Below, piece by piece: positions 4,161 through 7,922 of a stretch of 9,011 nucleotides of DNA (positions are counted from its first letter, which is position 1; the number at the start of each line of letters is the position of its first letter). The position numbers and the translations under genes are program-made. The notes beneath the pieces are model-generated. The model made no database searches. It had not been told where the DNA came from and saw only the letters and a list, made by a program, of their open reading frames with translations. The DNA is from Deltaproteobacteria bacterium (GTDB lineage Bacteria > Desulfobacterota > SM23-61), in contig JAOUFX010000069.1 in assembly GCA_029857975.1 (NCBI GenBank), positions 1 to 9,011 of the forward strand, read 5' to 3'.

Positions 4161-4577
4161 TCACTTTGCTTCGGTGGGGAATTTAGCCTTGGACCATTCT
4201 TTCCATCCACCTTTGAGGACGTAAACTTTTTTGAATCCCAAGGAAATGAGCTCCTGTGCCACCCGGGCACTTGTCCCCTCGCTGGGTCAGGCGCAGTAGA
4301 GGAGAAGAGTTTTCTCTTGGGAATATTTTTCAGCCCAGGATTTAGTTTGCTTTGAAGGATCCTCCCGGATTGCTCCCTGAATTTTTTCTTTACTGCCATC
4401 CCAATCTCTTCCGGCACGAACATCCAGGATGATGACTTCCGGGTTGCCGAGCATCGATTTCATTTCTTCTTTGGTGATACGGGGGACATCACCGGCCCAG
4501 GCCATGATGGTCCAAATACCGAACCCCAAAAAATATAGCGCAATTTTTAAACCCATCTTCCATATTCTTTCCGGCAT
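4161..4577 (-). CDS. Exported rhodanese-domain selenoprotein with in-frame TGA (Sec97)
   Basis: A 138-residue single-domain rhodanese if TGA at 4289-4287 is read as selenocysteine; otherwise it stops after 96 residues. The N-terminus is a signal peptide: basic residues, a hydrophobic run I-A-L-Y-F-L-G-F-G-I-W (12-22) and an A-W-A/G-D cleavage site near 28. The mature protein is therefore periplasmic. The rhodanese fold shows as I-I-L-D-V-R (49-54), the active loop Y-C-A-U-P-S-E-G-T-S-A-R (94-105) and V-Y-V-L-K-G-G-W-K-E-W (118-128). Cys95 matches the usual catalytic cysteine. Residue 97 is Cys in homologues I recall that have a Y-C-A-C-P loop, so the TGA falls on a cysteine site and gives a C-x-U redox-like motif. 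The 41 codons after TGA are intact and family-like, and a SECIS-like hairpin follows. The likely role is sulfur/selenium transfer or thiol redox work in the periplasm. The alternative is a nonsense mutation or base error. Confidence 0.8.
4256..4286 (-). promoter_or_regulatory. Candidate bacterial SECIS element
   Basis: Directly after the in-frame TGA on the minus strand, 16 nt lead to a perfect 5-bp stem GUGCC/GGCAC (4270-4266 with 4260-4256). It closes a five-base loop CGGGU (4265-4261). Bacterial SECIS elements recognised by SelB sit within the coding region just after UGA, with the apical loop roughly 16-37 nt away and a G among the first loop bases. Here the loop begins 21 nt after UGA and its second base is G. 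The loop also contains GGU, as in the E. coli fdhF SECIS. The stem is short, so structure alone is not decisive. Confidence 0.6.
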
Positions 4578-5313: not shown

Positions 5314-5682
5314 GTGGGAAGATTAAAACAATTCATCGGCCTAACTCTTTTCATCCTGATGTTAATATTTTCCATGGCCCTTGCGCAGGGGCAGGAAAAG
5401 GAGGAACTCTTAGGTAAAAAAGAGTCCACCCCCAAAAGCCTTGTGGAAAAAGCCAAACAAAAAGCCAAGGAGGAAATGAAAGCGGTCAAAAAGGATATCA
5501 AAAAGGCTGGAAAAGAGTTAAAAAAGTCAGCCGCCGAATTCCCGGACAAAGCTGGCAAAGAATTTAAAAAGACCGGGAAAGCCCTTAAAGAGACCGGCAA
5601 GGAATTAAAAGAAACCTCCAAGGGCGCCTTCGAGGGGTTGAAAAAATTTTTCAAGAAATTGCGAAGTTATTTCAAAGATTGA
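5314..5682 (+). CDS. Small exported lysine-rich helical protein
   Basis: I do not recognise a family for these 122 residues. A clear signal peptide (basic start, hydrophobic F-I-G-L-T-L-F-I-L-M-L-I-F, A-L-A/Q near residue 24) sends it to the periplasm or cell surface. The mature part is very rich in Lys, Glu and Ala and lacks Cys. It is built of heptad-like amphipathic units such as K-K-T-G-K-A-L, K-E-T-G-K-E-L and K-E-T-S-K-G-A (around 85-105), so it should be helical or coiled-coil. It ends in a basic aromatic patch (F-F-K-K-L-R-S-Y-F). The start is GTG at 5314, with GAGGAGGG at 5297-5304, 9 nt upstream. A terminator follows the stop, so it is probably monocistronic. It may be an envelope-associated, nucleic-acid- or lipid-binding protein, but nothing in the sequence decides this. 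Confidence 0.75.
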   Translation: MGRLKQFIGLTLFILMLIFSMALAQGQEKEELLGKKESTPKSLVEKAKQKAKEEMKAVKKDIKKAGKELKKSAAEFPDKAGKEFKKTGKALKETGKELKETSKGAFEGLKKFFKKLRSYFKD

Positions 5683-6549: not shown

Positions 6550-7797
6550 TTATGAGAACCGGCGCCATTGAGTCCCCTGAGGGGTATCTTCCACAACAAT
6601 TCCAGACCGAAGTAATTGGCGCCGGATGTCATCGGCAATTTCCCACTGTTTGGCTGCCCGGAGCCTGCTGCGAATATCCAGAAGAATATCCACCAGGGGT
6701 GCGAGAATGGGCAAAACATCCTTGGGACACTCGTTAAAACGGAGGCCAAGTTGAACGATCATTCCCCGAAACGTTTCCCGGGCCTGGGAGATCAGGTCTT
6801 CATCCTCGAAATCCTTGCAAGATTTCCAGATTATTTTATCCAAGGTAACAAGTACATTGATCAAAGCTTCCCCTTGATGATCCTGAAGATAGCGATCGAA
6901 AGATTCCTTGAATGATTTAACCTGCTCCACAAATAGTTCAGCGGCAGGTTCGGCGGCCTGGATTTTTGGGGGTTCCCCTGGTTTTTCTTCGGTGGATGGC
7001 GCGGCCAACCCTTTGAACTCATCCAGAGGGAGGATTTTTCCATCCTTGAATATCTTTTGGGAGCTCCGGTGGTGCAACGTCACGCCTCCAATGCCCCGGA
7101 TGGAAACTTTTTCCTCCTGGAAGTCCAGAATACAGGCCGTGTGCTCATCGATGCCGAGAATCGGGATATCCTCGGGGAGCATTTCTTCGAGCCGAATCAA
7201 TCGCGACTCCCCCATGTAGCAGAACCGGGTGTCATGGGTGCCCCCTTCGGCGTTGTTCCAGTGGGGGATCACGACGATATTCAGTCCCAACCTGCCCAAC
7301 AGATTCATGCCCTCGATCCAATGCAGTTCTTCTCCCACCTTGTATATTTCGTAAACCGGAAGCGTAAACCGGCCGAGGGTCAGGGCGGCAGCGCTGGCAG
7401 CAATGAAGCAGGCGCCGCTTTGGACCCTTTCGAGAATAATTTGAGGAATGGGCGTCCCGGCCCAATTTTTTAGAGCGTAAGTGGGGCTTCCGGGGCCCAC
7501 AAAGATGTAATCTGACTGGCGGAGAGTTTGAAAAGCCTTCTCTGAGTCGTAGGGGGAAATATTCGTAGAAGATTTGAAGGCCACAGGTTCCATGGTTTGA
7601 CCGAGACGCTTTTCAAAATATTCCCTTGTCTTTTCAAAAAGGTCGTCGGCATTCATCTGGAAGCCTGCCGGAGTATCGATGAATACGGCCTTGACCGGAG
7701 GGGTGAGTTTCTGCAGGAGATCCCGGTGCACCCGGACCATCGAATCGGTTGTCTCCCCAGAACCCATGATGGCAATGACGCCGCGGCGAGTAGACAT
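6550..7797 (-). CDS. Peptidase S51-like domain fused to cysteinyl-tRNA synthetase-like C-terminus
   Basis: A two-part cytoplasmic protein of 415 residues. Residues 1-263 resemble peptidase S51/cyanophycinase and class I amidotransferase-like proteins: G-V-I-A-I-M-G-S-G-E-T (6-16), I-F-V-G-P-G-S-P-T-Y (98-107), an elbow A-A-S-A-A-A-L-T-L-G (133-142) with possible nucleophile Ser135, and G-I-D-E-H-T-A (215-221). The family's G-x-S-A-G-A is altered to A-x-S-A-A-A. A Pro/Glu/Ala-rich linker (264-287) leads to a helical region. Its end, L-R-A-A-K-Q-W-E-I-A-D-D-I-R-R-Q (379-394) then G-I-V-V-E-D-T-P-Q-G-T-Q-W-R (399-412), closely resembles the C-terminus of cysteinyl-tRNA synthetase. No catalytic synthetase core is present. 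The start at 7797 is chosen because AGGAGG lies 4 nt upstream; the frame is open 29 codons further without a ribosome site. It is first in an operon with the phosphorylase-like gene. Substrate and biological role are unknown. Confidence 0.85.
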   Translation of the reverse strand: MSTRRGVIAIMGSGETTDSMVRVHRDLLQKLTPPVKAVFIDTPAGFQMNADDLFEKTREYFEKRLGQTMEPVAFKSSTNISPYDSEKAFQTLRQSDYIFVGPGSPTYALKNWAGTPIPQIILERVQSGACFIAASAAALTLGRFTLPVYEIYKVGEELHWIEGMNLLGRLGLNIVVIPHWNNAEGGTHDTRFCYMGESRLIRLEEMLPEDIPILGIDEHTACILDFQEEKVSIRGIGGVTLHHRSSQKIFKDGKILPLDEFKGLAAPSTEEKPGEPPKIQAAEPAAELFVEQVKSFKESFDRYLQDHQGEALINVLVTLDKIIWKSCKDFEDEDLISQARETFRGMIVQLGLRFNECPKDVLPILAPLVDILLDIRSRLRAAKQWEIADDIRRQLLRSGIVVEDTPQGTQWRRFS

Positions 7798-7800
7798 GAT

Positions 7801-7808
7801 TCCTCCTT
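7801..7808 (-). promoter_or_regulatory. Ribosome binding site deciding the S51-fusion start
   Basis: AAGGAGGA on the minus strand lies 3 nt before ATG at 7797, which gives normal spacing for its AGGAGG core. It places the start 29 codons inside the longest open frame, which has no comparable site. Confidence 0.75.
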
Positions 7809-7922
7809 GGTTTAATTTACCGAGCGAATTTTGGAAAAGCAAGGAAGAAATGGAAAAACCATCCGGGTTGGAGCGTCGAATCAAGTCGAGAAGATCTCTT
7901 GCTATTGCGGAACAAAGAATTA

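Follow-up and report, generated by a model that had tools for sequence, protein, structure and literature searches.

A rhodanese gene with an in-frame TGA that is very probably a selenocysteine codon, and relatives that carry two such codons

The 9,011-nucleotide (nt) stretch analysed here (contig JAOUFX010000069.1 of the Deltaproteobacteria bacterium assembly GCA_029857975.1; hereafter the window) contains a rhodanese gene that is interrupted by a TGA codon, which raises the question whether this codon is a stop or encodes selenocysteine (Sec, U). The first-pass annotation had described one in-frame TGA after Tyr-Cys-Ala with 41 open codons beyond it, and had stated that a standard gene caller would report only 96 residues. 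Translation of the minus strand gave exactly this arrangement: a frame of 138 residues followed by a TGA stop (Table 1), in which the single internal TGA, codon 97, lies immediately 3' of Tyr-Cys-Ala in the active loop (LLLYCA-TGA), and in which the 41 open codons past this TGA complete the rhodanese domain, TSAR...VLKGGWKEW included. The listing of open reading frames (ORFs) contains the truncated 96-residue product, and an ordinary ORF call thus cuts the protein at residue 96. Judged from sequence, the window gene is a member of the NF041203 family of selenoproteins whose TGA is very probably read as Sec, because four lines of evidence support recoding: family membership, conservation of the TGA, a covarying hairpin resembling a selenocysteine insertion sequence (SECIS), and the presence of the Sec machinery in related genomes.

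When the TGA was written as Cys, the protein matched PF00581 over residues 35-130, a region that spans the TGA (2.4e-15), and NF041203, "rhodanese_LYCAU, rhodanese-related (seleno)protein", over residues 22-138 with 175.1 bits (cut-off 115; 4.2e-52). The LYCAU active loop with an in-frame TGA, to which NF041203 owes its name, is present in the window protein. Seven further NCBIfam families, TsoB among them, were matched far under their own cut-offs. The DedA/GlpE-type and other CxC rhodaneses (YCACP, YCTCPNE) have the same loop as the window protein, with P-x-E and S-A following, but they differ in having Cys at the Sec column and, in the rows seen, frames of more than 300 residues. Against the single-domain rhodanese GlpE of E. 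coli, the window protein scored 26.2 bits versus a cut-off of 102; GlpE is not known to have a second Cys or Sec in its loop. The rhodanese/DsbD fusion selenoprotein TsoB (NF045694) shares a rhodanese with Sec, but the match of the window protein is weak (27.3 bits versus a cut-off of 805) and, unlike the window protein, TsoB is listed as UxxxxU with two Sec in the accessible part of PMC13188914.

The first-pass annotation had been cautious about the novelty of the family, and rightly so, since the CxU motif is listed in the parts available of two papers: the table of PMC13188914 has a Rhodanese-like domain-containing protein as "form 3, NF041203, CxU, 1", credited to Zhang and Gladyshev 2005, and PMC9312934 lists COG0607 form 2 as CxU. 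In the retrieved portion of PMC1794560 the word rhodanese is confined to the reference list, and PMC12013277 does not mention rhodanese. As far as the form 3 entry describes it, the window protein has the same domain and the same CxU loop, scores 60 bits above the NF041203 cut-off, and no difference was found in the window's own protein. The window gene therefore joins an already catalogued CxU selenoprotein family, of which the UxU side branch, treated below, is the fresh part.

Database proteins and genome DNA gave complementary views of the Sec column. The 68 database relatives comprise 46 that end exactly at YC(x), nine that end at Y, six full-length proteins whose Sec column is W and seven others. 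A profile scan of genome contigs resulted in 43 loci (L001-L043), and a scan of genome contigs with a single sequence found none; the Sec column of these loci is TGA in 41, Cys in one (L029) and Ser in one (L024), and six also have TGA at the catalytic Cys. A further search for NF041203 covered 395 genomes from the phylum to which G010 (the Desulfacinum hydrothermale genome) belongs, and matches exceeded the cut-off at 83 places in 60 of them. These places contain one TGA (63), two TGAs (11), no stop (8) or only a TAA (1), and none contains TAG; one of the 63 also has a TAA, and in two others, the CxS rows L105 and L113, the TGA lies away from the Sec codon, one codon downstream and elsewhere, respectively. 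Thirty of the 83 places were already loci and 53 were added. Removal of duplicates left 113 rows, and discarding three under 100 bits gave a main set of 110 genes, window included; frames in this set were split at TAA and TAG, so that those stops are counted only among the 83 places (two with TAA). Read as DNA, the Sec column of these nonredundant genes is TGA in 99, Ser in eight and Cys in three, and their loops are CxU (84), UxU (15), CxS (7), CxC (3) and SxS (1). The first-pass annotation had proposed such an alignment of the TGA column and had expected Cys there in related proteins, and Cys-type homologues with YCACP and YCTCP loops do exist. Ser occupies the column in L024, L106, L111, L113, L114, L118 and L119, and because six of these seven genes are without the hairpin described below, Ser, like Cys, seems to have replaced Sec within the family.

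A few further members deserve mention. The copy of Desulfacinum hydrothermale DSM 13146 (L010, 10001-10381) carries a TAA in frame downstream of its Sec codon and is either broken or miscalled. Tandem copies occur, with three consecutive genes (CxU, UxU, CxU) at L038, 5189-6495, and adjacent pairs in G432:C67 and G465:C25. Relatives also occur in 19 plasmid records, all with less than 60% identity.

The 54 bases from the TGA onward align without gaps in the 99 Sec genes, and a five-pair hairpin starts 16 nt past the TGA. The stem joins columns 20-24 to columns 30-34: 99.6% of 495 cells are paired, each of the five pairs shows two-sided changes, and none of 500 shuffles and no slide scores as well. 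All five pairs are formed in 97 of the 99 genes, and the second loop base is G in every one. The strongest third-position covariation among 136 pairs of positions joins the stem's two wobble positions (T-A 63, C-G 32, T-G 3, C-A 1), and it persists within each tertile of third-position GC content. Codon choice is restricted here as well: Ser is AGY in 97/98 cases, Ala GC[AG] in 93/93 and Val GTG in 63/63, compared with 196/512, 402/995 and 277/862, respectively, elsewhere in the same genes. According to the accessible part of PMC13188914, a bacterial SECIS (bSECIS) has an upper stem of 4-16 bp, a loop of 3-9 nt with G in the first two positions, a distance of 16-37 nt from the TGA, and a free energy of -7.5 kcal/mol or lower. 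The window hairpin lies within these limits (5 bp, 5-nt loop, G at position 2, 21 nt), and the 55-nt stretch folds with -17.6 kcal/mol. RNA covariation now backs a predicted selenoprotein family.

Several observations weigh against the assignment of the TGA as a Sec codon. Folded by itself, the 55-nt stretch of the window has an unremarkable stability (z -0.32, matched by 73 of 200 shuffles), and the mean z against synonymous shuffles is only -0.70 for the 88 rows scored, 11 of the 99 loops having been mislocated. Among the 19 Sec genes of a held-out set, read from loci in the phylum of G030 (Nitrospiraceae), the loop G is present in all, but the five pairs form in only 13, with four pairs in two genes and three in four. 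Moreover, CxC homologues of the held-out phylum form all five pairs in five of six scored rows (two further rows, L149 and L150 with loop FCAC, were outside the scoring), and among the 11 main-set genes without TGA at the site, L029 and L024 keep five pairs and the loop G, L105 keeps four pairs and the other eight three or fewer. Because CxC homologues and two TGA-less main-set genes also form it, the stem by itself is not specific for Sec in these sequences, and the argument is carried by covariation and codon choice; a GC-rich stretch encoding S-A-R-T-A can yield the stem without Sec. Rfam gave no match at gathering scores across the window and only chance-level matches at the locus. The W in the Sec column of six of the 68 database proteins also counts against Sec. 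For the function of the protein, no hint came from a conserved partner gene in the neighbourhoods of the 99 Sec genes, surveyed within 4.2 kb or to the locus end (16 of 97 loci are shorter than 4 kb): none occurs in more than 14 loci, and of the two clusters found in 14 loci, one consists of an antisense ORF that overlaps the rhodanese gene itself and the other is unannotated.

The Sec machinery was searched for in the 38 genomes behind L001-L043 and in 14 control genomes. SelB is over its cut-off in 35 of the 38 and in two controls; tRNA-Sec reaches at least 56 bits in 31 and passes the gathering score in 34, as it does in five controls; and SelB, a clear tRNA-Sec, or both are found in every one of the 38. 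In ten selected genomes of the 38, SelA is over its cut-off in all ten and SelD in eight, and 11 of the 12 SelD places over the cut-off themselves contain TGA. In G002 and G001 the rhodanese contigs also carry genes with 67% and 66% identity, respectively, to a neighbouring gene in the window (6550-7884), so that the window probably stems from a relative of these deltaproteobacterial metagenome-assembled genomes. Both of these genomes have SelA and SelB; a full-length SelD occurs in G001, a SelD fragment in G002, and tRNA-Sec scores 72.6 bits in G002 and only 45.6 in G001. In the proposed mechanism, SelB and tRNA-Sec would read the TGA as Sec, directed by the SECIS hairpin just downstream inside the coding sequence. 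Second SelB or tRNA-Sec matches within one genome were seen in G016:C36, G010 and G024, and in G016 SelB adjoins a tRNA-Sec-like gene.

What would such a protein do? A rhodanese fold is predicted for it: AlphaFold2 gave pLDDT (predicted local distance difference test) values of 96-98 from residue 31 onward, and residues 1-30, which precede the domain, have 61-63. Structure comparison matched the protein best to rhodanese domains, among them those of coenzyme A (CoA)-disulfide/persulfide reductases and a persulfide dioxygenase fusion, and solved relatives by sequence (52 sequences) are mostly rhodaneses and sulfurtransferases. The N-terminal signal sequence visible by eye in the first 28 residues suggests that the protein is exported. 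Cys95 would take up sulfane sulfur as a persulfide, as other rhodaneses do, and Sec97, two residues on, may attack or resolve this persulfide via a selenenylsulfide. From the C-x-U pair we tentatively propose, at not quite an even chance, that the protein acts as a periplasmic oxidoreductase of persulfides and thiols and not as a plain sulfurtransferase. A considerable possibility is that the same selenoprotein has another job, as a plain periplasmic sulfurtransferase, in polysulfide or selenium handling, or in metal binding. Its fold is near persulfide-handling rhodanese domains, and the part of PMC11818150 available describes the CXU, UXC and UXU motifs of mammalian SELENOP as cadmium-binding; on the other hand, a Cys or Sec two residues from the catalytic Cys in 102 of the 110 genes fits a redox pair, an argument that is weakened by the Ser found at that position in the remaining eight.

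Explanations that dispense with Sec fare far worse. It is highly improbable that a Cys codon has turned into TGA in a decaying or miscalled gene: TGC or TGT becomes TGA by one base change and broken copies do occur occasionally (TAA in L010 and in L103), but the TGA recurs at this codon across many assemblies, the codons downstream and the RNA stem look selected, and stops of other kinds are limited to the two TAAs among the 83 places. For the NF041203 family as a whole, TGA conservation excludes this explanation. Even less probable is a decoding of the TGA as tryptophan, or its ordinary read-through. The six W forms would agree with the former, but they all lie on contigs of 632-1689 bases and are most simply explained as TGAs translated under code 4 by a gene caller; among the 110 genes seen as DNA none has TGG at the column, the only states being TGA, Ser or Cys, and a genome-wide tryptophan code is at odds with TGA as the terminal stop of the rhodanese gene and of the window genes at 28-1269 and 5314-5682. 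A functional 96-residue product with a relic 3' part, although it is what gene callers report, is scarcely credible, as it stops inside the active loop, and the 3' part is conserved in 61 sequences (G123 and W128 without exception, G124 and W125 almost without) with restricted synonymous sites.

With Sec as the preferred reading of codon 97, the 15 main-set genes with TGA-x-TGA, in which the catalytic Cys codon is TGA too, represent a UxU form (L006, L009, L015, L016, L033, L038, L043, L062, L073, L088, L089, L091, L093, L099 and L120). Three of the 19 held-out genes are of this type (L141, L146 and L147), and in the phylum of G030 two TGAs are held by four of the 18 places over the NF041203 cut-off; UxU thus occurs in deltaproteobacterial and Nitrospirota relatives, the window's own protein being CxU. 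The nine database proteins ending at the Tyr before the catalytic Cys, seen as protein sequences only, are consistent with it. All five stem pairs are formed in each of the 15 main-set genes, and only three in L146 and L147. The two TGAs lie 27 and 21 nt from the loop, both inside the 16-37 nt range, with a single hairpin for both. When both loop positions were masked, a tree of 99 genes showed UxU scattered and in need of nine changes, at least five of which are forced by well-supported branches; this tree is based on few columns and its root is for drawing only, so that the changes may run either way. It is likely that the catalytic Cys has repeatedly been exchanged with Sec, giving a rhodanese centre capable of forming a diselenide, with two TGAs six bases apart decoded under one downstream hairpin. 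These genes exceed the "CxU, 1" entry in the accessible table of PMC13188914. A UxU rhodanese was not found among the hits listed in full-text literature searches or within the papers searched, where the only UXU met was that of SELENOP, in the available part of PMC11818150; an earlier report is possible. The UxU relatives pose the question how two UGA codons could share one SECIS, and natural CxU/UxU pairs, such as the tree neighbours L067 and L089, let one ask what selenium adds at the catalytic position.

Table 1. Parts of the putative selenoprotein gene in the window (forward-strand numbering)
Feature	Position	Strand	Basis or remark
Probable selenoprotein gene, putatively exported single-domain rhodanese, 138 residues with Sec97	4161..4577	-	TGA stop at 4161-4163; frame, PF00581, NF041203
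Probable Sec codon, in-frame TGA (codon 97), third active-loop residue after Tyr (C-A-U)	4287..4289	-	TGA in 99/110 family genes
Codon 95 (TGC), presumed rhodanese catalytic Cys	4293..4295	-	Replaced by TGA in 15/110 family genes
SECIS-like hairpin, 5-bp stem, 5-nt apical loop with G at position 2	4256..4270	-	21 nt from TGA to loop
Putative N-terminal signal sequence	4494..4577	-	By eye: positively charged start, then a hydrophobic run and A-W-A ahead of residue 29

Two other genes of the window were characterized. The one at 5314-5682 (plus strand) encodes a Lys/Ala-rich protein of 122 residues with a start that by eye resembles a signal sequence and with no Pfam match. The one at 6550-7884 (minus strand) encodes a protein of 444 residues, which has a peptidase S51-like match and, at its C-terminus, one to the anticodon-binding domain of cysteinyl-tRNA ligase, and near full-length matches to it are present in nine of the 38 genomes.
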